Part shown: positions 17,117-51,406 of the stretch, piece by piece
Position numbering within the stretch: position 1 is the first letter of the stretch
Layout of the letters: every line of letters begins with the position of its first letter
Assembly (NCBI RefSeq): GCF_964204865.1
Contig: NC_135259.1
Span: 10,488,974-10,552,973, forward strand
Length of the DNA: 64,000 nucleotides
Direction of reading: 5' to 3'
Source: Styela clava
Taxonomy: Eukaryota; Chordata; Ascidiacea; Stolidobranchia; Styelidae
The notes under the pieces: model-generated
Told to the model about the DNA's origin: nothing
Database searches by the model: none
What the model saw: the letters and a program-made list of their open reading frames with translations, nothing else
Position numbers and translations under genes: made by a program

Positions 17117-18186
17117 CTATAATTTCATGGAGGGTACAATATATTGAGATTATAGTCTTTTCAAACCCAGTGAGTGACTGGCTGACTGCACGATCGTTAA
17201 CTGGAAAAAGTGTGAAACGAAAACATTTTTGAGTGATTGGATCACATCAGTACTATATTGGCAATACATAACACGCGACCATGATTCATTGAATGCAATG
17301 TGAGAGGCGTAGGATAGATGATTGTCGGAAATCCTTTCCCAAACATCGTCACAATGAAGCGTGGCTTTCTCGGATATTTTGGCCGCTCAAAATATTTTTC
17401 TATCAAGATTGTGCTTCGTCTACTCGCAGAAGAAATTTTAATATGACTAGAAAAGATTAGTTGTGTATTTGATAGAAGAAATATTTATATATATATATGG
17501 GAAAGCTTAGATATATATTGTTATGTGTAGCAAACGGAAATCACTTAAAATAATACTGAAATTATGGAACCAGTTTCGATAATACAGTTTTCGTACGGCA
17601 TGGGTGAATATCTCAGAAGCTAAATAAGTTGAAGTGTATCAAATATATCTAGCCTCAGTATTACGAAACTAATATCCCCGACCTTTCAAATTAGATATTG
17701 GCCTTTGTTTCCGGCAGCTTTTCGTCCTCATTGAAATTGAGTGCTAACTTTGTGTGGTAATTTGGGTACGATTGGTTCTTGCTGCAGACGAAAATAAGCT
17801 TGACATGACTTCATTGACGAGTGAGGCGTGCAAAGCAAGGAAGGATAGATATAGTCATTTTGATTTCGTGATAAAAATCACGAATTTGTAATCATTTCTC
17901 GCCCATGTATTTGAGTCTGTCCTCGATGCCTCGGGTTTACTTGATTGCAAATTGACCCCTTTGAAAGATTGTTTCGCTTGTAATAAATGATATTTTCAGC
18001 TCTTTTTACCCGTTGCGAGGGCGAATATCAGTATTTTTTACAGCATGTGCATCATGCCCATACGTTGAACGAGAAAATAAATAATAGAACGTCGTGGTCC
18101 GAACCATGTTATTTGTGCAATCAATACTCCCGACCCTGGTTTTATATTACTAAACCTGTGGGAATTGTTGTTGATGATGTTTTATG
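17117..18186. other. Intergenic, no gene seen
   Basis: AT-rich spacer between the pogo-like element and the segmental duplication. It includes a short TA-dinucleotide run near 17490. No coding or RNA feature is supported. It should contain or adjoin the promoter of the first C1-SNARE gene, but no specific element can be named. Confidence 0.4.
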
Positions 18187-18855
18187 GCTTATATAGTATT
18201 ATTGATAATTTGTGAAAATGATTTTATGGCTAAAGTCGGTCGTTTTTCCAAATTTCGATCCGGTACTGAGCTAAAAAGTGACGCGACTTACTACTTTTGT
18301 CGTGACATAATCTTGATATTAAGAGTCAATTGTAAACAGTATTATACTGGTTCTTATAGTATTTTTGTGGCATTGACCAATGAGAAATAAAAATGCCACC
18401 CTTGGTCCTTTTTGAAATTTCGATCAGGTACGAATTTAAAACCCGATGCGGCTTACAAGCGAAAACAGCATTATACTATACGCATCAATTTCTATTCGCT
18501 TATCACTTTCATCACGTATAAACGGCTCCAATTCTCGTGTCAATGCGAAACCATATTTCGTTTTTTATATAAATATCCGGCAGTTCATTTCATACATTTG
18601 GATAATGAGGATTCTTGCGAGTGAATTCTTAGTGAGAGCTAGTAGACCTTGAATGAATGAATGCCAAGAAAATGATTCAATCACCGGATATTTGGAACGA
18701 TTGATATCAACTGCATATTGTTTTAAACATATGCTTATTATAATGTTCGACGTTTATAAAATACGCTGTCGTTCATATTCTTAGCTATTGTAAATTTGAA
18801 AGGAATAAAACTCCTTAGAAAATATTGGAACGGTTCAGAAGAAAATATTGCTAAC

Positions 18856-21800
18856 ATGGACTCTTATGCTGAACATAACTTTCAATGGTATAATTATAAA
18901 CGTCCCACATTCTGTGATCATTGTGGGGGTCTGCTGGTTGGTGCGACGAAACAAGGGAAGAGGTGCAGGCGTGAGTAAAATATATACGGTATTTATGTTG
19001 TACAATGATGAAATTTTAATCCGCAAGAAAAAAAATCTGTGAATACCAAGCGATCTTATACGCGGGGCTGACTCGGGTAGAATATTTGTAGAGTACTCGT
19101 TTTTATTTTTCAAAAAACAACACAATTATTATGATATTCATATTACTTCAATTACTATATGACATTTCAGGGCGCTCCAAAAGTGTGTGTACCAATATGG
19201 GGGTAACTAATTTTGTTCGCCTACTTTACATCAAATTGTGTAAAGGGAGTGGAACTTATGGGCAGGGGGTATATTCACTTGGCTAACATAGACAGTCCCC
19301 GAACTCGTAATAGAACTAAAATATCGAAAATCGGAATAAAATTATGGCCTGACACGAACCTGGTACATACACTGCGGGAGTGGTGTGCATATATATTTTA
19401 GTACTTTTGACTACCATGTATACAATTTAGGGTGCGATCTCGATATTCACGAAAAGTGCGAAGAAATACTTGAAAAACCCTGCATTGAGTTGGTAAGTCA
19501 GATATCTACTTGTCCCCACCATCCCATATTCTTTTCTCTTCCTCCACCTTTGTGGCAGAAAACAGCGACAGTGGAGTGAGTAATATCAGTTTCTAATAAA
19601 TAATTCATATGGAACCAGCCAGTTTGCAAATCAAAAAAATAATTTGCAATAATATGAGATACCATTTCACGGATTCTTTTGAACCGTTCATCACTGCATT
19701 TCAAACGCGTTCCTTAGTATAGCGCATGGTGTTTGAAATGAAAGTGTTGAAATAATATTAAAAAGGTTGCCTTAAAGCCAGTCTGAATATGAATGCCTCC
19801 TCAGACTAGTGCTTCCTTTTTCTGTTACAATACATGACGTACACTTTGCAGTGTAGCGTCGCTTTTCGCTCAACTCAGTCTCAAATACACTCAAAATAGA
19901 TGAAATCTAAATTCTATTATGCGTGTTGTTGATTCTAGCTTCGATAAAAAGATTCAAAATTCTGGCCTTTTATTATTTATTTGCCCAGGTGACAGGACAT
20001 CACAACTTTCGAGAAAAGACTTTCACACAACTAACATACTGTGACTTTTGCAAGAATTTGTTGGTTGGATTTATCAGACAGGGAATGAAATGCTCAGGTT
20101 TTTTCGAATTTATTTTCAATGGAAATCGGGATATATTTATTCTATCTTCTTATAACGTTTGTAATAGTCAGAACTCAATTGTTTGTAGTTTCATACAAAG
20201 TTACATTTTATGTTTTATAGGGGCGATTAAACATTTTTATCTTATTGATTACATTTGTTGATATGCTAGCTGTTTCTTGGCTACTCTTAAAATAATTATC
20301 ATGTTCTCTTTTCAATGCTACTTGATAATCACAAAATGTATATCTAAAATCTACCCAATTCATTTTAAATATGCCGTGGATGACGTAGAGAGGTACCAAC
20401 ATCATATTGATATATTACATTAGCGATTTACATATATATATAATATACTTCATTATTCTCCTCCGATCCTCAAATACGCTTGAAAGACGTGACATGCTTA
20501 TGGCATTGTGAAATATTTGTATTGTTAGCTGTCCAATTTGTCGAAACTGAAGAATTGTTGATTTCCCCCTTGCCGACACAATTTTTTTCATCGATTTAAC
20601 GAATGGCAGTGAAAGTTTAAACAATAACAGTTATGTATAAAAATGAATATATATATATATATATGACGATGACCGTACATTTGAATCCATGTGTATATCG
20701 CGGGTTCAATCAATAGGCGGGTGCTAAAACCCATGGGTTAGGTTAGTATGGGTACAAATATCCGTAAAACCAAAAAAAATTCCATAGGTGCAATGGCATG
20801 CAGCTGCAATTGTCGTGGGTTCAAATGTAATGGAACCATATATGACCCCGGTAAAATAACTCTTTATTTTCTCAAAGAATGTGGAGCGAATGTGCATGAA
20901 AAGTGCCAAGAAAAAGTTGAAGCCTTCTGCAGACAAACACAAAGCAGATTAAACAGAGAAACTGTGTAAGTAAATCATTCTTTGGTTTTTGAAAGGAATA
21001 AGCACATCAGTAAATAACATTTGCTTTAGGTTACTCATCTTTTTTATTTTACAAAGGCTCATTAGCTTCTAAAATGCTAAATAATGGTAGCTAATCAGAT
21101 ATGTCCAAATGAGAACTATTACTGTCGCGTTTCATAACCTACACAATATCTTTAAACAATTCATTTTGCGTCATCCAAAGAGTTTATTTAATTAAATTAT
21201 CCATATTTTTCTTAATTTAGGCCGAAAACTAAACCACCACGATCGCCATCGCCGAGGCCGAAATCGCCACTACCGCCAAGTGAATTTCGTGTTGACCAAC
21301 CTGCCGATTTTCAAGTAATGAAACCAAAATCACGGACTCCTTCAGTAAGCAGATACTCAGATGATATGGATTCTTATCCAGAATGTGATCACGGTATATA
21401 CATTAATGTGACGCTAAGGTTTTTTATTCTGAAGAATTTTTTTTTAGTGAGTCCACGAGGATATGATAACATCAGCTTTTAAAGATATAAAAACGATTAT
21501 CTCTAGAATTTAGCTTAGACATTTTATTTTTATATATATGTACAAGGTTTTGTACGCTTTTCACTCCAAAAAAATCATGAACTCCTTGGTAAGGCGCTAC
21601 CATACTTTGAAAAAGCTGGACTATTTGCGGTTCATATTGATTCTCCAATATACTACATCATAGATATTACGATATATGATTACTTGTTTTTTTATATTCA
21701 ACCTACGATGCAACAATGATAAGAGCGGCGCTTCAATCACTAAACCATTACACCCAGAAATTAAATAAGTATGTATGGAAAATAAAATGCAATAGGAAGA

Positions 21801-22867
21801 CTTGTAAACGCTTTTTAAGATTCTATTGGCACTTCATCTTTGAGCCGACAGGCGTCTTCTACAACTGGTGCATCAAGTCGCCATGATTCAACAAATACAC
21901 CTAACACATCGTATCCCTCAACGTCGAGTGAAGAGCCAAACAAAATTGAACAAATGAAGCAAACGGTTCGTACCAAATTCGAATACTAGCATAAACAGTG
22001 CGTTCTTTGTATGTCCTACCTCTCCAACTCTAAAGTAGTTTCACAAATTATTTCTCATTCTAGGTCGACGATGTGTTCGGAATAATGAAGAATACCTTCA
22101 ACTCTGCTCTTCATAGGGGAGAAAATTTGGACAAGTTGCAAGTTGGTATCAAAATAAAAATAACTTGAATCGACCCGTCATCGTAATATGAACAACAACG
22201 TATCTAGCAGAAAACAAATATTTGTAACTGTATCTTCTACAGCAGTGGTTCTCAAACTTTTTGAGTCGCGCACCCTTTCTAGAATTTGTGAAGTCTCGCG
22301 CCCCACCTCAAAAATAACTAGCTAACAATAGCTACAAATAATAGATAGTAAGGCAAAAGTATGTTTTAATAAAAAAACACGTGAATGGAATGTAAATATC
22401 CAAAATAAAGAAATGTAAATATCTAAAATAAGTCGGAAATATCAAATGTAACAAATATTTTTTCTTTTAATTAGCTTAACCCCTCCTCAAAAAATTGTCT
22501 ACGCCCTCCTACGTTTGTTTCTTACTATATATCGAATTCTCAGTAAAATTGTTAAATTCATTCCATTCTATATGCAGATATGACTCGTGCTTTGATATTG
22601 ACTAAAACAAATTAATGATTTCCAAACTCTATTGTGTATATTTTAGTTTAAGTTATGCATAACATGGTATAGATTGCACATTCCATTCTACAGAAAAAGT
22701 CAAAAGATTTGGAGGAGAGAGCTAATCTTCTGGAAAAGACAGCCAAAAAAGTAAAATACAAGATGATGTGGAAAAACTACAAACTATGGGTCGCCTTAGC
22801 TGTTGCTGCCATTATACTAATTGTTATTATATCTGTTGCTGTGGTATTTAGTAAAAAGACTTCCTAA
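18856..22867 (+). CDS. C1-C1-R-SNARE fusion protein, copy A (eight exons)
   Basis: Coding exons: 18856-18970, 19431-19492, 19989-20097, 20878-20965, 21221-21393, 21820-21965, 22064-22141 and 22694-22867. All have GT-AG ends and compatible phases, giving 314 aa. Residues 7-56 are a perfect C1 pattern (H7, C20, C23, C37, C40, H45, C48, C56) very close to PKC C1b domains, with DAG-site residues P17, G29 and Q33. Residues 64-113 are a second C1 domain. Residues 114-220 form a Ser/Pro-rich, probably disordered linker. Residues about 220-287 are a synaptobrevin-type R-SNARE motif (VDDVFGIMK, central Arg at 249, juxtamembrane WKNYK). A membrane segment spans about 288-309, leaving a five-residue luminal end. 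Expected role: tail-anchored vesicle SNARE whose cytosolic N-terminus binds DAG-type membranes (inferred). The start ATG has a good context (aacATGG). In copy B an in-frame stop lies just upstream, supporting this start. No transcript evidence. Confidence 0.85.
20668..20837 (+). mobile_element. MITE with 9-bp target duplication (copy 1)
   Basis: It starts gatgaccgtacatttgaa and ends caaatgtaatggaacc, an imperfect inverted repeat. It is flanked by identical 9-bp repeats, atatatgac, at 20659-20667 and 20838-20846. It lies in intron 3 of the copy A gene. Arm B has an empty site here (about 28520-28530), so insertion followed the duplication or was lost from B. The same family occurs inverted at 50775-50961. 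A 9-bp duplication suggests a Mutator-like mover, but no transposase is present. Confidence 0.85.
22243..22515 (+). mobile_element. hAT-like MITE remnant in intron 7, arm A
   Basis: It begins CAGTGGTTCTCAAACTTTTT followed by gagtcgcgcaccc, the classic left end of a widespread hAT group. Further on it holds cgccctcctacg, typical of the sequence near the other end. The expected right terminus (ending in ...ACCACTG) is absent, so it is truncated. It is shared with arm B and so predates the duplication. The right boundary is approximate. Confidence 0.6.
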
Positions 22868-23235
22868 CTGAAATGCAATTTGTCTGCACGGAGTCTTTTT
22901 AATTTTCAGCGTTTGCGATTTTGTTCTGAATGGGATTTGAGGTCACTCTTGGGGATAATATATTTGGAATTATACCAGTTCCACTTCGTCTATCCCAATT
23001 TTTTACTAACACTTCGTGATGTTGAGTATAGATAGAGAAACATTCAGATAACAGGTTGCCAATGCTCCCATGTTCTCCATTTCTTACCCCGTAAGGATGG
23101 TGTCAAATTATAGCAGATTATACCAAGACCATAATAACCACGGTAAAATAAGAACAAGACAAATTTCCAAACAAAGAAGTTCAGTTACCTCAAAGAAAAG
23201 GTCGAAAAGCTTATCGAACATTACACCAATGCGTG

Positions 23236-23241
23236 AATAAA
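23236..23241 (+). promoter_or_regulatory. Possible polyadenylation signal, copy A
   Basis: AATAAA lies about 370 bases after the stop codon of the copy A gene. The same hexamer in the same context is found after copy B (31533-31538). Other AATAAA hexamers follow nearby (about 23301), so which is used is unknown. Confidence 0.35.
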
Positions 23242-23414
23242 AAGTTGTTCTGAAATACATTGCTTATATCTACATGAGGCATGACCCTAATTGCTGACAA
23301 ATAAATTGATTAAAAAATAATATTTAATTTTATGCAATAAATGGGTCTACGATAGAAAAAGATTTAAAAATAGTAAAAGAAAGAAATTATTCTTAGATTC
23401 GGCATTGCTTAGAT

Positions 23415-24004
23415 CAGGGTTCCCAAAGTTGACCGCGGGTCAAATTTCGAAGCAGAAGGATATTCGCGGGCCAGAAACGGGGAGCAGCAAAAACGGCTGG
23501 GGTTCAGGAAATTTTGAAAAATAGTCACTAAAATAGGTTGCAAGCTTGATTTTATATACACCCAGCATAGCAGTTTGTTTTGTAATAAAATTAATAATTA
23601 TAATAGTCAGGTGATAGAATACCCGAGGAATAACAAGCACGACTTTCAACAAGGAATTTGTAACTGATAGTCACCAATAAAGTTACTTGCTCATTTTGCA
23701 TACTTGGCTACTTATGGTTTGTTTTGTTACACAAAAAACATCCCAATGTATATAATATAAATATAAAAAAACGAAATTCCAACATTATTAATTGTGTATT
23801 TTTGTACAAACGTGTAATTCGGGTTGGCTCGAAATCAGATGTTCAAAACGTGGCTTCAGTTCATTACATTGTATCCACAACAACGCATTCAATTGATTAT
23901 CTGCCAATCTGGACCGAAGTTTTGATTTGTTCGTTTTCTGAAATCGTTAAGCCATTTTAAATCGTTACGCAGGCCGTAATTAACCCGCGGTTTGGGAACG
24001 CCTG
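23415..24004. mobile_element. hAT-type MITE, arm A
   Basis: The left end is CAGGGTTCCCAAAGTTGACC. The right end, on the opposite strand, is CAGGCGTTCCCAAACCGCGG, an imperfect inverted repeat with a CGCGGG block inside both ends. Flanks gcttagat (23407-23414) and gctcagat (24005-24012) match at 7 of 8 positions, an old 8-bp hAT duplication. The same element sits at the same place in arm B, so it predates the segmental duplication. Confidence 0.8.
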
Positions 24005-24564
24005 GCTCAGATAAATTAGTATAGCTACATATTTCACAATCTTTTCGTGAAATAAAGGAATTATTAGGGTGGAAACTGTCCAATTAATTTTAATTAGTAT
24101 ATTTTGAGTCTTCAAATTTAGAAAAATCCAGTCTTTCGCTTGTATTTAATAACACTGTAAACGGAAAATATCTGAGACGAGAATTATTGACCCTGTTAAA
24201 AAAATAAATACCTGTTGAAAATGTTTTGAACCGGTTAAATTAAAAAACGGAATAAAAAATTAAAGAAAATGAATAATACATACATCTCGTTTATTTTTGT
24301 ATACAATTGACGCAAAACAATCATTGCGTTCAAAATGTCAACATTTAGCTGATTTTGACTTTTGTATAAAAAAATAAACATAGCAAAAAATGACCCCTGT
24401 CATTACCACAGATGTCGGTCTAATTGCGCGAGTAGAAATGTGAAGGTTTCCACATTTCATTTTCCAAATTGTATTCAAAATGCTTTCAAGAATTCTGAAT
24501 AAACACATACATACAAATCAATTCCGCTGGATCAATTGGTAGACCGTAAAATGTCATATTCATT

Positions 24565-24655
24565 CCAGGGGGAGGAAACCCGATAGATGACTTAATCATA
24601 TGGCGAATCACTGGTCACGGCCTTTTCTCCAATGACCAGTTCATGTCGGGCATGA
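24565..24655 (+). mobile_element. SINE 3' fragment, arm A
   Basis: The segment containing gggggaggaaacccgata and cttaatcatatggcgaa resembles the tail half of the SINE at 42681-43010 (gggggagaggaaagccgatg, then the same cttaatcatatggcgaa word). There is no tRNA-like head. It is shared with arm B at about 32863-32945, where part is deleted. Confidence 0.6.
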
Positions 24656-26745
24656 TAGATAGATTGTTTTGCAAACACCGCAATGCACACAAATTAAAAC
24701 TTGAGAATTCTAGAGAGCGAGCAAAACATTCAAACAAGTTAAAGCATGATAGATATAATGTTCCCGCTCACCTGCACACTCACAAAACATACAAGAAACA
24801 CAAACCTATTTAAACAATAATAATAATAACCAATTCATTCTGATACAGTATATGAGCATTAACCGTCTTAGACTTAGAGGGATGCAAATATGAAATTCAA
24901 TTTTCAATCTTTTCGTCAGTGCGTCAATTCCATATGAAATAACTGTACCACACAATCAAACACTTTGTGTCAGAAATCATCACAAAATATGTCAATTATA
25001 CCAAAATTTCTACATTTCAGGCCATTTTTTATAAACCATCAAAAACCTGGTTGAAATTTAAAATTGTTCGATGAAATGAATGCAGTCCAATAAAATTCCA
25101 ATGTCTTTTGATATCAAAAATAAAATAAAATTACTTTCACTACACTTTTTAAAAAATTGATGGAACTCAACTTTTGCTTGGAATGGCGCATAACATGTCG
25201 CTGTAAAAGGCTATGGTAACCTAAAATTTGCGCTTTCGTGTTAGCAAACTCATCCACCATCTTCGTCATATCATTTTTTTCAAAAATCAGTAGCTTACCT
25301 GTTATAATTGTCGTGTAAGTTTTGGAAGAAAATTCATTCGCGCGGGCGCCATCACTTTTGGAGATTGAACACGCATCTGGTTTTCTACCGATACCACCGG
25401 TGCTAGGCCTAATTTCTCCTCAGTTACGTTCGGTATTAATTGTTTCAATTTTGGTTATATTTCGTTTATCTTGGTTACTTTAATTACTTTAATCGTAATT
25501 TCGCCGGTGCGATCAAACCACACGACGCCGAAAATCAACGACTCCGGCATTGTTACGTAATAAAACGATTTGGGCAGAACTAACATCAACATTTATAGGA
25601 TGTGCATTACTGCTTTTGCGGCTTGAATTTCTAAATTTTAACCGCTTGGGGCCCCTTTTCGCTGTGCCCAAAAATTCCAGCCCGAAATTTCATATTGAGG
25701 GGTATATTGAGCATATGGGGTTAATTGAGTACAATGTATAAAAACCTCGCTAACTTTTTTGTATGTTGAGTGAATGGTTTGTACTTTGTAGCGACAATAT
25801 TTCATATCCTATGCTTGCGTATAACTCACTTACCTACCAATGATAAAATTATTTTAGATGTTTGTATGTGAAATTTTGTTCGTGAAAAAAATTGTTTTGG
25901 AAACTTTCACGGGACACTTTTCTGATAGTATATTTTAAACTTTTTGTGATGCCTTTTAGTACCCTAGTAAAGACTCTCTTTGCCCCAGTAGATAATTTTT
26001 GTGTAACTCATTGACTTTTTGTTGTATTGATGTTTGAAAAAATCGAGGTGGCTCATATAGTATTAATGATATTTTGTTAAAATGATTTTATGGCCAAATT
26101 CGGTCGTTTTTCCAAATTTCGATCCGGTACTGAGCTAAAAAGAGACGCGACTTACAACTTTTGTCGTGACATAATCTTGATATTAAGAGCCAATTGAAAA
26201 CAGTATTATACTGGTTCTTATAGTATTTCTGTGGCATTGACCAATGAGAAATAAAAATCCCACCCTTGGTCTTTTTTGAAATTTCGATCCGGTACGAATT
26301 TAAAATCCGATGTGGCTTACAATTTTTGCCATCCTAGTATTGAAGCCGAGCGAAAACAGCATTATACTATACGCATCAATTTCTATTCGCTTATCACTTT
26401 CATCACGTATAAACAGCTCCAATTCTCGTGTCAATCTCAAACATATTTCGTTTTTTATATAAATATGCGGCAGTTTATTTCATACATTTGGATAATGAGG
26501 ATTCTTGCGAGTGAATTCTTAGTGAGAGCTAGTAGACCCTGAATGAATGAATGCCAAGAAAATGATTCAATCACCGGATATTTGGAACGATTGATATCAA
26601 CTGCATATTGTTTTAAACATATGCTTATTATAATGTTCGACGTTTATAAAATACGCTGTCGTTCATATTCTTAGCTATTGTAAATTTGGAAGGAATAAAA
26701 CTTCTTAGAAAATATTGAAACGGTTAAGAAGAAAATATAGCTAAC

Positions 26746-29700
26746 ATGGACTCTTATGCTGAACATAACTTTCAATGGTATAATTATAAACGTCCCACAT
26801 TCTGTGATCATTGTGGGGGTCTGCTGGTTGGTGCGACGAAACAAGGGAAAAGGTGCAGGCGTGAGTAAAATATATATACGGTATTTATGTTGTACAATGA
26901 TGAGCTTTTCATCCACAGGAAAAAAACTGTGGAAACTCTCATTACTACACCAAGCAGTCTTATACGCAGGGCTGACTCGGGTAGAATATTTGTAGAGTAT
27001 TAGTTTTTATCTTTCAAAAAACAACACAGAAGTGTGTGTACCAATATGGATATGGAAGTAACTATTTTTGTTCGCCTACTTTACATCAAGTTGTGTAAAG
27101 GGAATGGAACCTATGCGCTGGGCTATCATGCGCTATCATGTTCACTTGGCTAACACAGACAGTCCCCGAACTCGTAATAGAACTAAAATATGGGAAATCG
27201 GAATAAAATTATGGTCTGACCCGAACCTGGTACACACACTGCGGGAATGGTGTGCATATATATTTTAGTACATATATATGCACTTTTGAATACCATGTAT
27301 ACAATTTAGGGTGCGATCTCGATATTCACGAAAAGTGCGAAGAAATACTTGAAAAACCCTGCATTGAGTTGGTAAGTCAGATATTTACTTGTCCCCACCA
27401 TCCCATATTCTTTTCTCTTCCGCGACCTTTGTGGCAGAAAACAGTGACAGTCGGGTGAGTAATATCAATTTCTATTGAATAATTCATATGAAATCAGATA
27501 CCGGCTAGTTTGCAAATCAAAAAAATAATTTACAATAATATGAGATACCATTTCACGTGATTATTTCAAACCGTTAATCGCTGGGTGTTTGAAATGAATG
27601 TGTTTAAATAATATTAAAAAGGTTGCCTTAAAGCCAGTCTGAATATGAATGGCTCCTCAGACTAGTGCTTCCTTTTTCTGTTACAATACATTACGTATAC
27701 ATTTGCAGTGTAGCGTCGGGCGTGTAGCTTTCATTTCGCTCAACTTAGTCTCAAATACACTCAAAATAGATGGAATCTAAATTCTATTATGCGTGTTGTT
27801 GATTCTAGCTTTGATAAAAGATTCAAAATTCTGGCATTTTATTATTTATTTGCTCAGGTGACAGGACATCACAACTTTCGAGAAAAGACTTTCACACAAC
27901 TAACATACTGTGACTTCTGCAAGAATTTGTTGGTTGGATTTATCAGACAGGGAATGAAATGCTCAGGTTTTTTCGAATTTATTTTCAATGGAAATTGGGA
28001 TATATTTATTCTACCTTCTTATAACGTTTGTAATAGAACTCAATTGTTTGTAGTTGCATACAAAGTTACATGTTATGTTTTGTCTGATTTATAGGGGCGA
28101 TTGACCATTTTTATAATATCGATTACATTAGTTGATTTGCTAGCTATAGTTTTTGGCTACTCTTAAAATAATTATCGTGTTCTCTTTTCAATGCTACTTG
28201 ATAATCACAAAATGAATATAAAAAATCTACCCAATTTATTTAAATAGACCGTGGATGACGTAGAGAGGTACCAACATCATATTGAAATATTACATTAGCG
28301 ATTTACATATATATAAACCTTATTATTTTCCTCCGGTCTTCAAATACGCTGGAAAGACGTGACAGGCTTATGGCATTGGGAAATATTTGTAATGTTAGCT
28401 GTCCAATTTGTCGAAACTGAAGAATTGTAGATTTACCCCTTACCGACACAAATTTCTTTATCGATTTAATGTATGAGCCAATAAAAGTTTAAACAGTAAC
28501 TGTTATGTATAAGAATGAATATATTGTCCCGGTAAAATTACTCTCCATTTTCTCAAAGAATGTGGAGCGAATGTGCATGAAAAGTGCCAAGAAAAAGTTG
28601 AAGCCTTCTGCAGACAAACACAAAGCAGATTAAACAGAGAAACTGTGTAAGTAAATCATTCTTTGGTTTTTGAAAGGAATAAGCACATCAGTAAATAACA
28701 TTTGCGTTGGAGATAGCTTTAGGTTACTCATCTTTTTTATTTTACAAAGGCTCATTAGCTTCTAAAATGATAAATAATGGTAGTTAATCAGTTATGTCCA
28801 AAGGAGGACGATTACTGTCGCGTTTCCTAGCCTTCATAATAATATATCTCCAAGCAATTCATATTGCGTCATCCGAAGAGTTTATTTAACTAAATTATCC
28901 ATATTTTTCTCTATTTAGGCCGAAAACTAAACCACCACGATCGCCATCGCCGAGGCCGAAATCGCCACTACCGCCAAGTGAATTCCGTGTTGACCAACCT
29001 GCCGATTTTCAAGTAATGAAACCAAAATCACGGACTCCTTCAGTAAGCAGATACTCAGATGATATGGATTCTTATCCAGAATGTGATCACGGTATATACA
29101 TTAATGTGACGCTAAGGTTTTTTATTCTGAAGAATTTTTTTTTAGTGAGTCCACGAGGATATGATAACATCAGCTTTTAAAGATATAAAAACGATTATCT
29201 CTAGAATTTAGCTTAGACATTTTATTTTTATATATATGTACAAGGTTTTGTACGCTTTTCACTCCAAAAAAAGCATGAACTCCTTGGTAAGGCGCTACCA
29301 TACTTTGAAAAAGCTAGACTGTTATGGTTCATATTGATTCTCCAATATACTACATCATAGATATTACGATATATGATTACTTGTATTTTTATATTTAACC
29401 TATGCAACAATGATAAGAGCGGCGCTTCAATCACTAAACCATTACACCCAGAAATTAAATAAGCATGTATGGAAAATAAAATGCAATAGGAAGACTTGTA
29501 AACGCTTTTTTAAGATTCTATTGGCACTTCATCTTTGAGCCGACAGGCGTCTTCTACAACTGGTGCATCAAGCCGCCATGATTCAACCAATACACCTAAC
29601 ACATCGTATCCTTCAACATCGAGTGAAGAGCCAAACAAAATTGAACAAATGAAGCAAACGGTTCGTACCAAATTCGAATATTAGCATAAACAGTGCGTTC

Positions 29701-30568
29701 TTTGTATGTCCTACCTCTCCAGCTCTAAAAGTAGTTTTGCAAATTATTTATCCTTCCAGGTCGACGATGTGTTCGGAATAATGAAGAATACCTTCAATTC
29801 TGCTCTTCATAGGGGAGAAAATTTGGACAAGTTGCAAGTTGGTATCAAAATAAAAATAACTTGAATCGACCCGTCATCGTAATATGAACAACAACGTATC
29901 TTGCAGAAAACAAATATTTGTAACTGTATCTTCTACAGCAGTGGTTCTCAAACTTTTCGAGTCGCGCACCCTTTTTAGAATTTTTGAAGTCTCGCGCCCG
30001 ACCTCGAAATAACTAGCTAACAATAGCTACAAATAATAGATGGTAAGGCGAAAGTATGTTTTATTAAAAAAAACACGTGAACGGAATGTAAATATCCAAA
30101 ATAAAAATATGTAAATATCCAAAATAAGTCGGAAATATAAAATGTAACAATTATTTTTTCTTTTAATTTGCTTCACGCCTTCTCAAAAAATTGTCTACGC
30201 CCTCCTACGTTTGTTTCTTACTATATATCAAATTCTGAGTGAAATTGTTAAATTCATTCCATTCTATATGCAGATATGACTCGTGCTTTGATATTGACTC
30301 GAACAAATTAATGATTTCCAAACTCTATTGTATATATTTTAGTTTAAGTTATGCATAACATGGTATAGTATAGATTGCACATTTCATTCTACAGAAAAAG
30401 TCAAAAGATTTGGAGGAGAGAGCTAATCTTCTGGAAAAGACAGCCAAAAAGGTAAAATACAAGATGATGTGGAAAAACTACAAACTATGGGTCGCCTTAG
30501 CTGTTGCTGCCATTATACTGATTGTTATTATATCTGTTGCTGTGGTATTTAGTAAAAAGACTTCCTAA
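26746..30568 (+). CDS. C1-C1-R-SNARE fusion protein, copy B (eight exons)
   Basis: Coding exons: 26746-26860, 27310-27371, 27858-27966, 28559-28646, 28919-29091, 29515-29660, 29760-29837 and 30395-30568. Each is exactly the length of its copy A partner and has the same splice phases. Aligned by eye, the exons differ from copy A at ten positions: one each in exons 1, 3, 5 and 7, four in exon 6 and two in exon 8. Every change is synonymous, so the 314-aa product is identical (two C1 domains, Ser/Pro linker, R-SNARE, TM tail). Introns differ much more, including indels. An in-frame TAA a few codons before the ATG supports the start. The 5' flank differs from copy A beyond the arm boundary: copy B is preceded by the 3' part of arm A, so the two copies may be under different upstream control. 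Confidence 0.85.
29939..30213 (+). mobile_element. hAT-like MITE remnant in intron 7, arm B
   Basis: Counterpart of 22243-22515, beginning CAGTGGTTCTCAAACTTTTC with the same truncated right side. Small differences from arm A show independent decay after duplication. The right boundary is approximate. Confidence 0.6.
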
Positions 30569-30696
30569 CTGAAATGCAATTTGTCTGCACGGAGTCTTTT
30601 TAATTTTCAGCGTTTGCGATTTTGCTCTGAATGGGATTTGAGGTCACTCTTGGGGATAATATATTCGGAATTATACCAGTTCCACTTCGTCTATCC

Positions 30697-31285
30697 CAGG
30701 CCTGCACAAATCAAATCACCACGAGGGCCACGAGCATAAATCTGAAGGCCCGGCGGGCCGCAAACTTTGCCACATACATATTTCACAAGATGAACTACAA
30801 ATCAAAATAATATTGTGAAACAGTTAAATTTAATGAAACACTTTCATTACTGGGGAGCTTAAAAATATGAAGAATCTTATTTACCTGAGTAAAAACAAGG
30901 TACAGTATTTTTGCATATGAGATGGCAAATATGTATTTAGTGGTTCATCCACCTTGAAAACCCAGCCTTCATTTTCAATATTTCTTTTTTATTAGAATTA
31001 GGTATTGCGTGTTGCAGTATAAACTGACTGCAGAAAAATATTTTACTCAGGTTCAGTTTTGTAAAATCGTCCCAGGGTCTAGAGACGAATATCAGGGGTC
31101 GCGAAGGAAACACCAGTTTCACACAAAGTTCGATATTTACTGAAACTAGTGCAAAACATAAATTTCACGATTTCGAATATGATCGGGGTAGCGGCGCGCT
31201 TGCATAACAATGCCGGCTTTGATTGTTAGACCCGAGAAGTGGCGTGTTTCCAAATCATCCGCGGGCCGTATGTTGTGCAGGCCTG
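30697..31285. mobile_element. hAT-type element private to arm B, 589 bp
   Basis: The two ends are exact inverted repeats, CAGGCCTGCACAA on the left and its reverse complement on the right. They are flanked by a perfect 8-bp duplication, gtctatcc, at 30689-30696 and 31286-31293. Arm A has the uninterrupted site (cttcgtctatcccaatttt near 22991), so this is a filled/empty pair proving insertion after the duplication. GC-rich subterminal blocks (ggcccggcgggccgc and ccgcgggcc) lie inside each end. No transposase frame. Confidence 0.95.
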
Positions 31286-31711
31286 GTCTATCCCAATTTT
31301 TTACTAACACTTCGTGATGATGAGTATAGATAGAGAAACATTCAGATAAAGGTTGCCAATGCTCCCATGTTCTCCATTTCTTACCCCGTAAGGATGGTGT
31401 CAAATTATAGCAGATTATACCAAGACCATAATAACCACGGTAAAATAAGAACAAGACAAATGTCCAACCAAAGAAGTTCAGTTACCTCGAAGAAAAAGTC
31501 GAAAAGCTTGTCGAACATTACACCAATGCGTGAATAAAAAGTTGTTCTGAGATACATTGCTTATATCTACATGAGGCATGACCCTGATTGCTGACAAATA
31601 AATTGATAAAAAAATATTATTTAATTTTATGCAATAAATGGGTCTACGATAGAAAAAGATTTAAAAATAGTAAAAGAAAGAAATTATTCTTAGATTCGGC
31701 ATTGCTTAGAT

Positions 31712-32305
31712 CAGGGTTCCCAAAGTTCACCGCGGGTCAAATTTCGAAGCAGAAGGATATTCGCGGGCCAGAAACGGGGAGCGGCAAAAACGGCTGGGGT
31801 TCGGAAAATTTTGAAAAATAGTCACTAAAATAGGTTGCAAGCTTGATTTTATATACACCCAGCATAGCAGTTTGTTTTGTAATAAAATTAATAATTATAA
31901 TAGTCAGGTGATGGAATACCCGAGGAATAAATAACAAGCACGACTTTCAACAAGGAATTTGTAACTGATAGTCACCAATAAAGTTACTTGCTCATTTTGC
32001 ATACTTGGCTACTTATGGTTTGTTTTGTTACACAAAAAACATCCCAATGTATATAATATAAATATAAAAAAACGAAATTCCAACATAATTAATTGTGTAT
32101 TTTTGTACAAACGTGTAATTCGGGTTGGCTCGAAATCAGATGTTCAAAACGTGGCTCCAGTTCATTACATTGTATCCACAACAACGCATTCAATTGATTA
32201 TCTGCCAATCTGGACCGAAGTTTTGATTTGTTCGTTTTCTGAAATCGTTAAGCCATTTTAAATCGTTACGCGGGTCGTAATTGGCCCGCGGTTTGGGAAC
32301 GCCTG
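31712..32305. mobile_element. hAT-type MITE, arm B
   Basis: Counterpart of 23415-24004 with the same ends (CAGGGTTCCCAAAGTTCACC on the left; opposite-strand CAGGCGTTCCCAAACCGCGG on the right) and the same imperfect 8-bp flanks. It was inherited through the segmental duplication. Confidence 0.8.
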
Positions 32306-32862
32306 GCTCAGATAAATTAGTATAGCTACATATTTCACAATCTTTTCGTGAAATAAAGGAATTATTAGGGTGGAAACTGTCCAATTAATTTTAATTAGTA
32401 TATTTTGAGTCTTCAAATTTAGAAAAATCCAGTCTTTCGCTTGTATTCAATAACACTGTAAACGGAAAATATCTGAGACAAGAATTATTGACCCTATTAA
32501 AAAAATAAATACCAGTTGAAAAATGTTTGAACCGGTTAAATTAAGAAACGAAATAAAAAATTAAAGAAAATGAATAATACATACATCTCGTTTATTTTTG
32601 TATACAATTGACGCAAAACAATCATTGCGTTCAAAATGTCAACATTTAGCTGATTTTGACTTTTGTATAAAAAAAAACATAGCAAAAAATGACCCCTGTC
32701 GTTACCACAGATGTCGGTCTAATTGTGCGAGTAGAAATGTGAAGGTCTCCATATTTCATTTTCCAAATTGTATTCAAAATGCTTTCAAGAATTCTGAATA
32801 AACACATACATACAAATCAATTCCGCTGGATCAATTGGTAGACTGAAAATTTCATATTCATT

Positions 32863-32945
32863 CCAGGGGAAGGAAACCCGATAGTTGGCGAATCACTGGT
32901 CACGGCCTCTTCTCCAATGACCAGTTCATGTCGGGCATGATAGAT
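32863..32945 (+). mobile_element. SINE 3' fragment, arm B
   Basis: Counterpart of 24565-24655, slightly shortened: the cttaatcatat word present in arm A is missing here. No tRNA-like head. Confidence 0.55.
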
Positions 32946-33193
32946 AGATTGTTTTGCAAACACCGCAATACACACAAATTAAAACTTGAGAATTCTAGAG
33001 AGCGAGCAAAACATTCAAACAAGTTAAAGCATGATAGATATAATGTGCCCACTCACCTGCACACTCACAAAACATACAACCTATTTAAACAATAAAAATA
33101 ATAATAACCAATTCATTCTGATACAGTACATGAGCATTAACCGTCTTAGACTTAGAGGGATGCAAATATGAAATTCAATTTTCAATCTTTTCG

Positions 33194-33500
33194 ACCCCCC
33201 CCCCCCCCCCCTTGGAAATGTGAAAAAAATAAAATCATTTTTCTGTATCATAGATAGCAATTTTCCGTAGCTTGAAATGCTTTTTGGACCCCCAAGACTA
33301 CTAAAAACACGCGTATTCCAGCGTTCAATCAGACCCGCTAGCTGTTTCAATCTAACTTGGCGAAGAAAAATTTCTTTGAAAATTTCTGGCTACGCCCCTC
33401 GCATCCAGCAACCACCGTGGTCATTGTGGTAATAAATCGTTAAATGGGCGAAGAAATGTTCTACAGCACTGCAAACATTCAAACTTTATTAACTTAAATC
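33194..33500. mobile_element. 307-bp insertion private to arm B with poly(C) edge
   Basis: Arm A reads ttttcg-t-cagtgcgtc at about 24911-24925. Arm B has 307 extra bases between the same flanks. The insert opens with a 17-base C run (33195-33211) and contains tctggctacgcccctc near 33390. On the other strand that reads AGGGGCGTAGCCAGA, a word common at invertebrate DNA-transposon ends and similar to CAGGGGTGCAGCCAGGGG at 53481-53498. No inverted repeats or target duplication are clear, so the type is uncertain. Confidence 0.55.
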
Positions 33501-34647
33501 CAGTGCGTCAATTCCATATGAAATAACTGTACCACACAATCAAACACTTTGTGTCAGAAATCATCACAAAATATGTCAATTATACCAAAATTTCTACATT
33601 TCAGGCCATTTTTTATAAACCATCAAAAACCTGGTTGAAATTTTAAATTGTTCGATGAAATGAATGCAGTCCAATAAAATTCCAATGTCTTTTGATATCA
33701 AAAATAAAATAAAATTACTTTCACTACACTTTTTAAAAAATTGATGGAATTCAACTTTTGCTTGGAATGACCCATAACATGTCGCTGTAAAAAGGCTATG
33801 GTAACCTAAAATTTGCGCTTTCGTGTTAGCAAACTCATCCACCATCTTCGTCATATCAATTTTTTCAATTTGCTTCAAAAATCAGTAGCTTACCTGTGAT
33901 AATTGTCATGTAAGTTTTGGAAGGAAATTCATTCGCGCCGGCGTCATCACTTTTGGAGATTGAACACGCATCTGGTTTTCTACCGATACCACCGGTGCTA
34001 GGCCTAATTCCTCCTCAGTTACGTTCGGTATTAATTGTTTCAATTTTGGTTATATTTCGTTTATTTTGGTTACTTTAATTACTTAATCGTAATTTCGCCG
34101 GTGCGATCAAACCACACGACGCCGAAAATCAACGACTCCGGCATTGTTACGTAATAAAACGATTTGGGCAGAACTAACATCAACATTTATAAGATGTGCA
34201 TTACTGCTTTTGCGGCTTGAATTTCTAAATTTTAACCGCTTGGGGCCCCTTTTCGCTGTGCCCAAAAATTCCAGCCCGAAATTTCATATTGAGGGGCATA
34301 TTGAGCATATGGGGTTAATTGAGTACAATGTATAAAAACCTCGCTAACTTTTTTGTATGTTGAGTGAATGGTTTGTACTTTGTAGCAACAATATATCATA
34401 TCCTATGCTTGCGTATACCTCACTTGCCTACCAATGATAAAATTGTTTTAGATGTTTGTATGTGAAATTTTTTTTGTTCGTGAAAAAAATTGTTTTGGAA
34501 ACTTTCACGGGACACTTTTCTGATAGTATATTTTAAACTTTTTGTGATGCCTTTTAGTACCCTAGTAAAGACTCTCTTTGCCCCAGTAGATAAATTTTGT
34601 GTAACTCATTGACTTTTTGTTTTATTGATGTTTGAAAAAATCGAGGT

Positions 34648-36255
34648 AAAATGAGTCTGTCGGAAATTTACCGTGGGGTAAATCGGGTATATGCATAAAT
34701 GGCCTTTCCCACTGCTATAACACAGGAATATGAGGTTTTGTGTGACTTTTTTGAGCCCTAACACTTTTTTGTAGCCTTTATCATGTCCATCTTTCAATAT
34801 AGGCTTCTATTTTTAATGAATATGAGTGTAAATTCACAATGGGCGATTGTAGGATTTTGAGAAAGCAGTTTTTTTCTTGTAACTAAAAAAAATAGTAAAA
34901 AAGAAAGCTGTGGACAACCCAAGCACAGAGTCCTACTCCACCAGTGAGCTTAGTGCATTTACAAAGGCTTCAGTTGACGTAATCACATTCACTGTCATCT
35001 CCGAAAACATGTAGTAATAATAAAAAAACAGCTGTCCCAGAAAATAAATTCAGGCGAAAACTATATAACGTCAATTGAAAGTATATACCATTACACTGAT
35101 AGGATGGACTTAAAACGGATATGATTGGTAGAAAAACAGCAAATAGAAAGATCATATTAATAGTTCAGAAAAGCAGTAACAGAGTCAGAATTAGATTCGG
35201 CTTTATCGACGACGAGACAGAATATGAAGCAGAATTCTCACATAGTACTGTAGTACAGTAGTACAGCTGATTATAACAGAGGACTAACTATAAGTAGCAT
35301 ATTCTGACATTAATGAAATCAAGACCTTGACTGGCTGGTTGAAATATGGGGAAAGGGAATTCCTTGGCCAAGTTGTCCTCACCGATGTATATAAAATGAA
35401 CTTTGTATGATACCAGTGTATGAAAGAGCTCAAAGATTTTGTGTTAGATTTAACCCAAAATAGGAACATAAAAAGTATCTCTATCAAGGAAGTTGTTGGC
35501 CAAGTCAAACCACCCATTTCTAGTCCATAATGAACTTGTATTTAAACTAAAAGCCTATTTGTGGTAAAAAGTTTATGGAAACCATAATTGTGATCTATAA
35601 TACCAAGTTTAAAGTGATGTCAGATAATTATGTTCCAAGGTTTTTGTAATTACCATTTTTTAAAATAAACTATATGTACCCAAGTTTCTCATGAAGGGGT
35701 TTGATTTGGTTCTAGGGATTTCTTAGATTTGATTTAACTGGTAGATGTCAGTTTACTCAATTATCCTCGAAAAATGAGGTAAATTGTATACTGACTTCCA
35801 AAAAAAATTGCATTTTTAGGTGACTTGAATACATTAAATAAGACTCAAACTGTTATGCAAGGAAGTACAGAGTCAAAATGTTACAGTGAAACCATAATTT
35901 CATGGAGAATTGATTTCCCTCAGATTTTACACCCGTTCAAATGTCAAAAACTACTCAAATAACCCCACCCCCTTATCTATTTAAAAAGAAGAAAAAAGTC
36001 AGCGATAGAGAAGCCCGACCCGAACATAATGATTGACATTTCAGGCCAGAATGTGGCTAATACTGTAATAGATGTTAGTACACAATTGTTATCCTTATTC
36101 TGTTATTGCTGTCCATTTAGCAGTGTTATTTATTACTGTATTAATTATTTTCAATGCTACCACATTGTTTCAATATCTGTAGTGTAATTTGTTAAATGAA
36201 ATAATGTTTAGTGATAGAAGTTCATTGCTGTATGACATTTCATGGTGACAGCATA
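34648..36255. other. Intergenic, no gene seen
   Basis: Unique sequence between arm B and the deubiquitinase gene. Short open stretches only. It should contain the deubiquitinase promoter. I looked for, and did not find, a cysteine/histidine-rich ZnF-UBP exon in this interval on the plus strand. A tttag acceptor-like site at about 36204-36208 could mark a 5' UTR intron. Confidence 0.4.
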
Positions 36256-38710
36256 ATGGCAAAGAAGCGTACTACTAAACAAAGAGCAGCTGCTAATGCA
36301 GCGAAAAACTCAAAGAATGCAACTGCTGGAAATAGGAAAATTGAACAGCAGAGCGATGAAGTGAACTTGACTGAGAATTTGAATATACAAAGGGTGCGTG
36401 ATGTTAAGAAAAATGTCCAAACTGCAAATATGGTGTATGCGCCTCCAAAGGGTCTTGTTAATTTAGGAAATACTTGTTTCTTCAACTCAGTAATGCAAAA
36501 TTTATGCAGAACACCCGGGCTGCTGCACCTATTAACGCATGCAAGCCAGGAAAGTAATTTTGTTGTTGATGGAGAGAATATTCCTTCAATTCAATGTCGA
36601 TTACCACCACTTTGCAAATTAACAGAGGCATTAAGTAATTTCCTAATCACCATGGAAGCAAGTGTGCAAGTTCCTATAAATAGCGCTGGTAGGCAAAGAA
36701 GTCGAACTGAATCTCCTAAGTCTTTGTTCAATCAAATCTGTACTGTTGCACCGAGATTCCGTGGATATCAGCAACAGGACAGTCAAGAAGTTCTCCAAGC
36801 TTTACTTGATGGTGTGAAAACGGAAGAGATAAAACGTCGAAAGCAGGCAATTTTAGCAAATTTGGGACTGCTGAAGAGAACAGCAAAAGACATATCTCAA
36901 GACACAAAGGAAATGGTGAAAAATTATGGACGACAAGCATCAAGGATACCAACAATAGTTGACAGTCTTTTCAGTGGCACATTACTCATTAGTGAGCTCA
37001 GTCTTATGTGATGAGTGTGGACAGATTACTCAAGTAACTGAGGATTTTCTTGACATTCCTTTGCCAATAGTCGAAAGTGTGCAAGCTCATCATCATAATG
37101 TAAATAATAAGAAATCAAACAAGGCGCAACCTATCAAAGATGAATTGAATTCTGGTGAAGATAACAAACATGAAATTACTAAAAAGGTGACTCCTTCAAG
37201 TAAACATGCAAAGAAGAAACAGAGACAGCAATCTCGCAAGAATCACCGCCGTAGAAGAACAAAGTCTCAAAATATTGAAGAGGCTTCGGAAAATGATGAA
37301 ATCAAAGAGATAGTGACTGAAATGCAAAGTATGGGAATCAATGGTCGTGTTGGTACAGATTTTAGTACTAATCAAGCCAGTAACTGGGGTAACAAAAACT
37401 CTGACATAGAGCCGGAAGAAATAAATTCAGAATCCAATAATATCGTTTCAGAGCTACAACAGTGTAAAATTGAATCTGCTGAAATAGGTATCATCGTAGA
37501 CACTGATGAGAAAATTGAGAATGAAAACAAGAAGAATGATGTAGTTTCAGAACTTAATAATAACTATTTAGTCGGTGAAAAAAATTCTCCTGATACTACT
37601 GCGGTGGCGGAAAATGGCACTGCCATAAATGAAACGACCAGTAGTTCATGCGATATTTTGGAAAATAAGGAAACTCAAAATGGTGGGGAAAATTTGCCTG
37701 ATATTACCACAAAGACGATAAAAAACACTGTCGCATTTGAAGAAAGTAGTAGCTCATGTGAGGATATTTTGAAGAATAATGAACAAACTGAAGAGATTCA
37801 TACTCCTGCATGTACAGACGGAAAAATTGTAGCAGAGGATGATGTTGTACAAATGCAGTTATCAAATGGAAATGCTGTTCAATGTGGTTTAATGAATGGG
37901 AACGCCGAAATTAAGCAGTCTGAAGATGAGCAAAACGCCGATTCTACCCCTAGTGATCACACTGAGCCATCTAGTGGCAATGATGAGAAGGAGGAGTCTG
38001 GTAACGAAATTGCAAAAGATAATTGCCCTTCACTATTTGAAACACCTAAAAAAAAGCCTGAAGTCAAATTCACAAGCTTTTGTTCGAAGTTGCCAATCAC
38101 TGTGTCACCAAGATACGAACCTGGAAAACAAGAATGTTCCATACAATCCTGCCTCCACAAATTTACAATGGCTGAAATGCTGACAGGGAACAATAAATTT
38201 GGGTGTGAGGAGTGCACAAAGCGGCAGAGAAAGCTCAGCAATGATAAACCAAAAACTATGTATTGCAATGCGAGCAAGCAAATGATGATCAAAACTCCGC
38301 CTCTAATTTTGACTCTGCAATTAAAAAGGTTTCAACAATCCGGCCGTAGCTTGAGAAAATTCAGCAAAAGGGTCGAAATTCCTATAGAATTTGATTTGTC
38401 CCCATTCTGCGCTAGTGATGACACAAATCACACCGATGATAATGGTCAAATAATGTATAGAATCTATGGCATTGTAGAACACTCTGGCAGCTTATCTCGG
38501 GGACATTACACTTCCTATGTTAATGTTCGTCCTGTGAATAAAAAGTTATTGCAAAAACTAGGACTAAAATGTGAACTCAATAATATGAAATGTGGCGATG
38601 AATTCCATGATCAATGGTTTCATATCAGCGATACTTCAGTATCGAAATGCACTCTTGATAGAGCTCTTAATTCAAATGCTTACTTGTTATTTTATGAAAG
38701 AATATTTTGA
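36256..38710 (+). CDS. USP16/45-like ubiquitin hydrolase, intron-less, frameshifted
   Basis: A cysteine protease that removes ubiquitin. USP16 acts on histone H2A and USP45 in DNA repair. I cannot tell which is the closer relative. The chosen start, MAKKRTTK, resembles the USP16 N-terminus and has a good context (ataATGG). The Cys box GLVNLGNTCFFNSVMQNL puts the nucleophile at residue 74. The GYQQQDSQE box is at about 170-180. The zinc knuckle pairs are CDEC and CEEC, the His box is HSGSLSRGHYTSY, and the end is AYLLFYERIF. A Lys/Arg-rich and then acidic insert of about 300 residues splits the catalytic domain, as in USP16. Oddities: no introns, no ZnF-UBP domain, and a frame break at 36985-36991. 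Removing an apparent 7-nt tandem addition (ctcatta) rejoins the frames as FSGTLVSSVLCDEC and gives 815 aa. It may be a real lesion, an allele or an assembly error. Confidence 0.85.
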
Positions 38711-48220: not shown

Positions 48221-49065
48221 GATTTACAGTTATCACTTAATGTAGGAGATCTGAAAATAAAAAAAAGTAAAATAAAATTTATTAGCATGAATATCCATAT
48301 AAATAATATTAAATACAATAACAAAGAAAAATGTGGCAAGGTCTAATATTTGTTGTTAAATAATAAGAGGCAAACTAGCAACGTAAACATGATTCCGATA
48401 TCAATTTTCATCGTGCAAAATCAATATACGATATGAAATAAATAGAAGGCATGTAACAAATTACAAAAACTGATATTGGCTTGTTGCAGTTATTATATGA
48501 TCATAGAGTTTGGTAACTACGGACACAGAGCTTCAGAGATCCTTCCGAGATGAAAAATATCATATCGAGCAACTTATATGATTTTGACGTATGCGCATTT
48601 CAGCAAATAATACGATATGGTTTGTGAAATTAGCTATTTTTAACACCAAATCATCTAATGAATCCAGAATCAGGAATAAAATTGTTATGGACTCGATTGC
48701 CTCTGCAGAAATGTGTATGTTGAATCCTTAATATAATGTGGAATAACAACCCACATTGCTAATTTCGCCATTAAACTACCGGTAATACCCAGGAGTTAGG
48801 GGCATGACTATGAGATCCAAATCATTGTGTGCAAATCTTGGCAATGATTTCTGAAAATATTACAATTGAAACTGAAATGTTGACTAAAGTAGCAACAAAA
48901 TAGAAAAAATATTTGAAGTTGTGATTGCTACACAAAAAAGTAAAGCAACTTTTTTCAACGTAAAATGACATTTGAGCAACAAAATCAGGTGAAAATTGAG
49001 TATTTAAACATGGAAAATCTAGCAACTACCCTGAACGGGTTGGTCATTTGGCTGAAATTGGGAAT
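48221..49065. other. Spacer between BTB-ZF 1 and 2
   Basis: Includes the probable 5' UTR intron end of BTB-ZF 1 (acceptor at 48251-48252), a TACCGGTA palindrome at 48777-48784 and the 3' flank of BTB-ZF 2. No other gene. Confidence 0.45.
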
Positions 49066-50553: not shown

Positions 50554-51406
50554 GATTTACAGTCATTACTTGATATCAGAGATCTGAAAATAAAATATCA
50601 ATTTACTAATTAACATGATATCAATTAAATAAGAGTAATAATATGTATCATAATAAATGAAACATGGAGAATATTTCAGGTACAAGCTTGACTGGGGATC
50701 TCTTGTAAGCTCTAACTTCTTTAAAGAAAATATAAAATCAATATATTTTTCCTAGAATAGAATATATTGTAAACGGTTCCATTACATTTGAACCCACGTA
50801 CATTTGAACCCATGACAATTGCACCTGTATGCTATTGCACCTATGGAATTTTTTTTGTTTCACGGATAGTTAAACCCATGCTAACCCTAACCCATGGGTT
50901 TTAGCACCCGCATATAGATTGAACCCGTGGATATATGCATGGGTTCAAATGTACGGTCACCATTGTAAACATGTCCAATAAACTTATACTGATCATTTTG
51001 GGCAACTATTAACTTATTCATTAAACATAGGCATCTTATCATTTCAAATGATTTTAAATGTGTTTATCAAACTTCACAATTCCACCATCATTTTTAAAAG
51101 ATTTTTATTATGGTTTACACAAAAAGATAAACATCAAGATCATGAACGATGGCAGTAAAGCAGCTTTCTTCAATGCATAGTGTGTTATGTTCAGGGTGAC
51201 CCCAAAAAAGAAACCCATACAATAAGTTCCAAATGGCCTGGGTTCCGTTTTATGGTCATGCTGTATATCCACAATATGATTTTGGCGTCAAAATCAAGTA
51301 CAGCCTATAAATCTTAAAGCGAAAAAGATCTAGTCCCAGCAACTACTTATTCAAACTCTAAAAATGTCACATTGTTAAAATCAAAATCCATTTCTTTCCT
51401 GTGTAT
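50554..51406. other. Spacer between BTB-ZF 2 and 3, with a MITE
   Basis: Holds the MITE at 50775-50961. The rest is AT-rich 5' flank of gene 2 and 3' flank of gene 3. No gene. Confidence 0.5.
50775..50961 (-). mobile_element. MITE with 9-bp target duplication (copy 2)
   Basis: It starts GGTTCCATTACATTTGAACC and ends, on the other strand, GGTGACCGTACATTTGAACC. It is flanked by a perfect 9-bp duplication, attgtaaac, at 50766-50774 and 50962-50970. It is the inverted-orientation relative of 20668-20837, sharing among others the words ggcgggtgctaaaaccca-like and ttccataggtgcaat. Inside it has several further TGAACCCA and GCACCTAT words in tandem. 187 bp, non-coding. Confidence 0.92.

Follow-up and report, generated by a model that had tools for sequence, protein, structure and literature searches.

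Genes predicted to join tandem C1 domains to an R-SNARE in the ascidian Styela clava

Introduction

Can a diacylglycerol (DAG) sensor be built into the SNARE protein that takes part in membrane fusion? R-SNAREs are usually sorted by their N-terminus, which is either short (the brevins) or a longin domain. The question is raised by a locus of the ascidian Styela clava, within a stretch of 64,000 nucleotides of contig NC_135259.1 (positions 10,488,974 to 10,552,973 of the forward strand; hereafter the window, numbered from its first letter). At positions 18856-22867 an original prediction, made from the letters alone, had placed a gene that fuses two C1 domains to an R-SNARE. The comparisons described below indicate that this locus is a real single gene, with the predicted order C1-C1-linker-R-SNARE-transmembrane helix, and that it exists as two tandem copies and one unlinked paralog. 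DAG sensing by its product is plausible from the residues of its C1 domains.

Results

The gene model

The window gene lies on the plus strand and has eight exons of 115, 62, 109, 88, 173, 146, 78 and 174 nt (intron phases 1,0,1,2,1,0,0). Together they give 945 nt, or 314 residues and a stop, with no internal stop codon; each of the seven introns is bounded by GT and AG, and the exon phases chain through. We thus recovered the eight phase-matched exons and the 314-residue product first proposed. Upstream of the start codon there is an in-frame stop at 18757 with no ATG in between.

Exon 1 (18856..18970, ending in phase 1 at the donor GTGAGT) supplies the start codon and the first half of the first C1 domain, C1a (residues 1-38), and exon 2 (19431..19492) its second half, to residue 59. 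The two halves of C1b are encoded by exon 3 (19989..20097; residues 60-95), where the gene model, Pfam and the tandem copy described below agree, and by exon 4 (20878..20965). The linker begins with a Ser/Pro-rich part in exon 5 (21221..21393) and continues with a Ser/Thr-rich part in exon 6 (21820..21965), which also holds the start of the SNARE motif. Exon 7 (22064..22141) carries the N-terminal half of the R-SNARE motif, including the zero-layer Arg249. Exon 8 (22694..22867) carries the C-terminal half, the basic WKNYK juxtamembrane segment, the transmembrane helix and the stop; Pfam and PDB sequence matches mark both of these exons. Starting exon 6 at 21852 broke the frame, and a start at 21820 restored it and gave the 314 residues. 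Inside intron 3 lies one copy (20670-20829) of a 160-bp repeat, whose inverted, 88.9% identical counterpart is at 50799-50959.

Pfam recognised C1_1 as two stretches (E=4.6e-29) and Synaptobrevin at residues 223-308 (E=1.3e-23), each clearing its curated cut-off by a wide margin. The 13 Pfam matches of the protein at E<=1 included no longin, kinase, PX, C2 or MUN domain. The domain order of the product is therefore two C1 domains, a Ser/Pro/Thr linker, the R-SNARE motif and a transmembrane segment.

A tandem copy with only synonymous changes

Self-comparison of the window revealed a second copy of the whole gene, which the original prediction had not included. Tandem unit A (18185..26049), containing the window gene, is abutted head to tail by unit B (26049..34647), both on the plus strand. 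Unit B contains copy B (26746..30568, plus strand), which encodes an identical 314-residue protein from exons at 26746-26860, 27310-27371, 27858-27966, 28559-28646, 28919-29091, 29515-29660, 29760-29837 and 30395-30568. Every exon and splice site of the window gene is kept. The two copies show 10 differences over their 945 coding positions and no indels (1, 0, 1, 0, 1, 4, 1 and 2 differences in exons 1-8), and all ten changes are synonymous, an outcome with a probability of about 1.8e-7 if substitutions were placed at random. Across the introns, 178 of 2774 aligned positions differ (2.4 to 9.1% per intron), with 28 gap runs; the coding and intron rates are clearly distinct (Fisher p 2e-13). 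Since the coding changes of copy B are all synonymous, chance is excluded as the source of the gene model, and the few differences in exons 5 and 6 (five together) imply that the linker exons are constrained too. Intron 5 (21394-21819, compared with 29092-29514) differs at only 10 of 422 positions (2.4%), against 4.7 to 9.1% in the other six introns; its low divergence could reflect either constraint or gene conversion.

Copy B could instead be an uncollapsed haplotype that was misassembled in tandem. Tunicates are very heterozygous, the copies are highly similar and units A and B abut exactly, all of which would fit. Yet both copies sit one after the other, in the same orientation, on a single long contig, and the paralog described next is independent of them, so we regard a true tandem gene as the better account and a haplotype as unlikely. 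The argument from coding constraint is the same for alleles as for copies, because constraint counts equally either way.

An unlinked paralog

We searched the whole genome (376.6 Mb in 379 contigs) with both Pfam families as queries. On the minus strand of a contig that we call C19, two C1 matches lay about 3.6 kb upstream of a pair of synaptobrevin matches. The gene assembled there has exons of 115, 62, 109, 82, 113, 200, 78 and 174 nt with phases 1,0,1,2,1,0,0, and thus shares both the exon number of eight and the intron phases with the window gene. Its 310-residue product matches C1_1 twice (2.5e-31) and Synaptobrevin (5.9e-28). The two proteins are identical at 35 of 50 residues in C1a and 39 of 50 in C1b (70-78%), at 28 of 60 (47%) in the SNARE motif and at 16 of 32 in the juxtamembrane and transmembrane segments. 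The proportion of synonymous differences (pS) is 0.96, or saturated, in the C1 domains, where the nonsynonymous proportion (pN) is 0.14; in the SNARE part pS is 0.71, far diverged, and pN 0.32. Because the structure is shared while synonymous sites are saturated or far diverged, the fusion is old relative to the duplication that separated the window gene from the C19 paralog, and has been kept since. The C1-SNARE coding sequence is under strong purifying selection. The predicted joining of C1 domains to an R-SNARE is thus strongly supported, by the tandem copy and by the unlinked paralog.

When the whole protein was searched against the genome, no locus other than the two window copies and C19 had both a C1 and a SNARE part among the 28 matches listed, with scores given for the best candidates only. 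Scanning with an alignment of the window and C19 proteins gave 171 pattern stretches in bacterial and archaeal genomes and 18 in viral contigs, with no confirmed relative in either set, as expected for an animal gene.

One gene rather than two neighbours

Could a tandem-C1 gene and a neighbouring VAMP gene merely look joined? The gene models compared here were read from genomic sequence, and a C1-only product could result if exon 5 were read past its donor to a stop a short way on (open reading frame 21216-21482). Exons 5-8, however, are each closed by an in-frame stop shortly upstream, with no ATG in between, in four of four cases in the window gene (for exons 5 and 6 the stops are at 21213 and 21816), in four of four in the C19 paralog and in three of four in copy B, whose exception, an ATG at 29706 in frame upstream of exon 7, would suit a separate gene. 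These exons must therefore either be spliced to an upstream exon or start at an internal Met. At both the window locus and C19, no upstream exons other than those of the linker and the C1 domains fit in phase. The linker exon phases (2,1,0) are kept between the two unlinked loci, and the five differences between the tandem copies in exons 5 and 6 are all silent. With these stops, the phases and the C19 paralog in view, we rejected the two-gene model, which we consider very improbable.

The R-SNARE part and the linker

Against a curated cut-off of 26.4 bits, the Synaptobrevin profile scored 83.1 bits for the window gene and 97 bits for the C19 paralog. Searched alone against PDB sequences, the SNARE part matched VAMP2 best (5.9e-11), followed by VAMP4 and VAMP8. 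We assigned the layers from what we take to be the VAMP2 layer positions. All 16 layers of the C19 paralog from -7 to +8 fit the VAMP2 pattern, including Asn at -2 and Arg245 at 0; in the window gene, Arg249 occupies the zero layer and all others are hydrophobic except Thr242 (-2) and Ser260 (+3). The layers of the C1-SNARE proteins look able to work. Arg249, the WKNYK segment and the terminal membrane helix of the original prediction were all present; the most hydrophobic window of 19 residues begins at residue 290 (mean 3.34).

The linker spans about 100 residues, of which Ser, Pro and Thr make up 46% in the window gene and 34% in the C19 paralog, with five and four SP/TP sites, respectively. 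It looks unstructured.

The C1 domains and the DAG groove

Both C1 domains of the window gene, starting at residues 7 and 64 and thus spaced 57 residues apart, match the pattern HX12CX2CX13CX2CX4HX2CX7C exactly, as do both of the C19 paralog, so that the full set of zinc ligands claimed for the window gene is present. The best PDB sequence match of the C1 region was the tandem C1 of PKC-beta (6e-19). A typical DAG-responsive C1 domain has the groove residues Pro11, Gly23 and Gln27 and an aromatic residue at position 22. Gly23, Gln27 and the pair Leu20-Leu21 are kept in all four C1 domains, as is Thr12, and Pro11 in three of them (C1b of the window gene has Leu11). Position 22 is Val in all four and aromatic in none; among the nine other C1 domains compared, it is Trp in four, Tyr in three, Arg in one and Lys in one. 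This position tunes DAG affinity, which may therefore be modest in these proteins.

Alternatively, the fusion could be real and its C1 domains atypical, serving as structural or protein-binding modules for localisation or regulation without DAG. Val22 throughout and Leu11 in one domain would suit such a role, and many known C1 domains do not bind DAG. On the other hand, all zinc ligands, Gly23, Leu21, Gln27 and Thr12 are kept throughout and Pro11 in all but one domain, the C1 residues are strongly constrained (the pN given above, at saturated synonymous sites), and Val22 is present in the phorbol-binding C1 of MRCK. We consider a role without DAG rather unlikely.

Origin of the parts

Each C1 domain of the fusion is split by an intron after Cys31, residue 32 and one base. 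At five other loci, which we presume to be PKC/PKD-like, all seven half-C1 exons that were read have a GT at exactly this place; they were picked because the matches stopped there, so that seven of seven is not an unbiased count. The two Munc13-like C1 domains of the genome (L009 and L010) read through without an intron at that place, which disfavours Munc13 as the donor. Within the SNARE motif, the fusion shares a phase-0 intron after Leu-Gln with a VAMP4-like gene on contig C10. Since intron places and phases match, the C1 exons look like PKC/PKD-type exons that were placed in front of a VAMP-type gene.

The SNARE motif itself says less about kinship. In a tree of 12 motif rows, one of nine inner branches was supported (VAMP2 with VAMP2); no supported branch made the SNARE part an ortholog of VAMP8 or of VAMP4, nor did this short-motif tree give a supported clade of the two C1-SNAREs. 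In pairwise comparison of the motifs the window gene was closest to the C19 paralog (48%). The genome has separate loci that we named, by reading their sequences, VAMP2-, VAMP4-, VAMP7-, VAMP8- and Ykt6-like; the fusion thus seems an addition to the ordinary VAMP-type genes, not a replacement.

Two further Synaptobrevin matches were seen in the genome. A single 293-residue frame on contig C6 (about 2918259-2919137; L025:5259-6137; Synaptobrevin 2.5e-15) has a long basic N-terminus and no transmembrane helix, and ends in FWKN followed by eight Cys; this R-SNARE may be anchored by palmitoylation. A 151-residue frame on contig C9 (about 1116498-1116953; L026:5498-5953; Synaptobrevin 5.2e-13) has the Cys-rich tail CKYYCPCCYCCVGCC in place of a transmembrane helix.

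How the protein might act

We incline, if only slightly, to the reading that this R-SNARE is brought to a DAG-rich membrane by its own tandem C1 domains. The C-terminal helix would anchor the protein in the vesicle membrane. DAG made on the target membrane, or on the same membrane, for example at the trans-Golgi, would then let both C1 domains insert together, with the linker of about 100 residues allowing them to reach across or fold back, perhaps under phospho-control. DAG could in this way concentrate, orient or free the SNARE at DAG-rich sites before it zippers with Q-SNAREs. Because Val22 probably makes each C1 domain a weak binder, the tandem would depend on avidity and react where local DAG is high.

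Several observations weigh against this reading. With Val22 in all four C1 domains and Leu11 in C1b of the window gene, the domains could bind DAG weakly or not at all. Layer +3 of the window gene's SNARE motif is a Ser. The linker is poorly conserved between the paralogs (25 of 81 aligned residues; pN 0.58). And action across membranes, action within one membrane and autoinhibition would look alike at the level of sequence.

DAG might instead work within one membrane: the C1 domains might bind DAG of the vesicle or trans-Golgi membrane that bears the transmembrane helix, which would direct the SNARE into carriers rich in DAG or keep it inactive. PKD-type tandem C1 domains act at the trans-Golgi, and the C1 introns of the fusion have the place and phase of PKC/PKD-type domains; VAMP4, whose relative here shares the phase-0 Leu-Gln intron, is trans-Golgi and endosomal. 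The linker would, however, be longer than reach within one membrane needs, and the motif tree lends VAMP4 kinship no support. Action within one membrane is a real possibility, one that we still place below an even chance.

Other features of the window

Neither RNA families nor tRNAs were found when looked for in the window. On the plus strand at 36205-38710 a ubiquitin-specific peptidase (UCH) with a long acidic and repetitive insert appears as two overlapping frames, probably two exons. The minus strand between 46703 and 63148 holds six long BTB and C2H2 zinc-finger frames (46703-48223, 49066-50556, 51407-53014, 53794-55344, 58017-60191 and 61241-63148), the first four of which are alike at the DNA level. 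Elsewhere in the genome, a GH6 frame (9.9e-11) follows 1.8 kb downstream of a GT2 cellulose-synthase-type frame (Glyco_trans_2_3 1.9e-16, Cellulose_synt 8.6e-7), both on one strand. This pair points to a probable tunicate host, since a GH6-fused GT2 cellulose synthase is a mark of tunicates; no match to mitochondrial COX1 turned up in the assembly.

Discussion

By profile and layers the product of the window gene is classified as an R-SNARE, and by its N-terminus as neither brevin nor longin. An N-terminus of two C1 domains, maintained by strong selection at unlinked loci, would amount to a third type of R-SNARE. If the C1 domains bind DAG, one small protein would take in the DAG step of exocytosis, which is otherwise divided between Munc13 or PKC and the SNAREs, and would be a natural design for a lipid-gated fusogen. 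Whether DAG in the target membrane alone speeds SNARE-driven fusion, given a fusogen that carries the sensor, would then be open to direct test. We put forward only tentatively, as falling short of an even chance, the fuller proposal that this is a DAG-gated R-SNARE that tethers vesicles to membranes with DAG made by phospholipase C, so that a single polypeptide would link signal to fusion with neither Munc13 nor PKC involved, and that it represents a third class of R-SNAREs next to the brevins and longins, a small gene family kept in the tunicate lineage.

The statement that no family with this architecture has been described agrees with our search: the literature covered gave no description of a C1-SNARE, while unnamed automatic predictions may well exist, eukaryotic protein databases being outside its scope. 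Among known systems, VAMP2, VAMP4 and VAMP8 share with the fusion the R-SNARE motif with its zero-layer Arg, a basic, Trp-containing juxtamembrane segment and a C-terminal transmembrane helix; the SNARE part is 33-36% identical to human-type VAMP2, VAMP4 and VAMP8 over 64 columns. In place of their short N-terminus the fusion has 220 residues, and where a brevin lacks a folded N-terminal domain it has two C1 domains. The longin R-SNAREs (VAMP7, Ykt6 and Sec22) likewise combine an R-SNARE with an N-terminal regulatory region, which in the fusion consists of C1 domains; no longin family came up among its Pfam matches at E<=1.

On the side of the DAG sensors, PKC and PKD also have two C1 domains in a row, and the presumed PKC/PKD-like half-C1 exons compared above, picked as described there, have the intron at the same place and phase. 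The fusion has no kinase domain and differs in its C1-to-C1 spacing of 57 residues and its Val22. In Munc13 a C1 domain ties DAG to vesicle priming; Munc13 is a separate protein, however, the Munc13-like C1 domains of this genome lack the shared intron, and the fusion has no C2 or MUN match.

The principle of a lipid-binding domain on a SNARE is already known, from amisyn and from Vam7. Amisyn (STXBP6), an inhibitory protein, combines a PH domain with an R-SNARE motif, and so resembles the fusion in joining a lipid-binding domain to such a motif; it differs in having PH instead of C1 and in lacking a transmembrane anchor. In yeast Vam7 the lipid-binding domain on the SNARE is a PX domain that binds phosphatidylinositol 3-phosphate (PMC12324414). 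Vam7 is a soluble Qc-SNARE without a transmembrane helix, and its PX domain, which has no match in the fusion, reads a phosphoinositide where the tandem C1 domains would read DAG.

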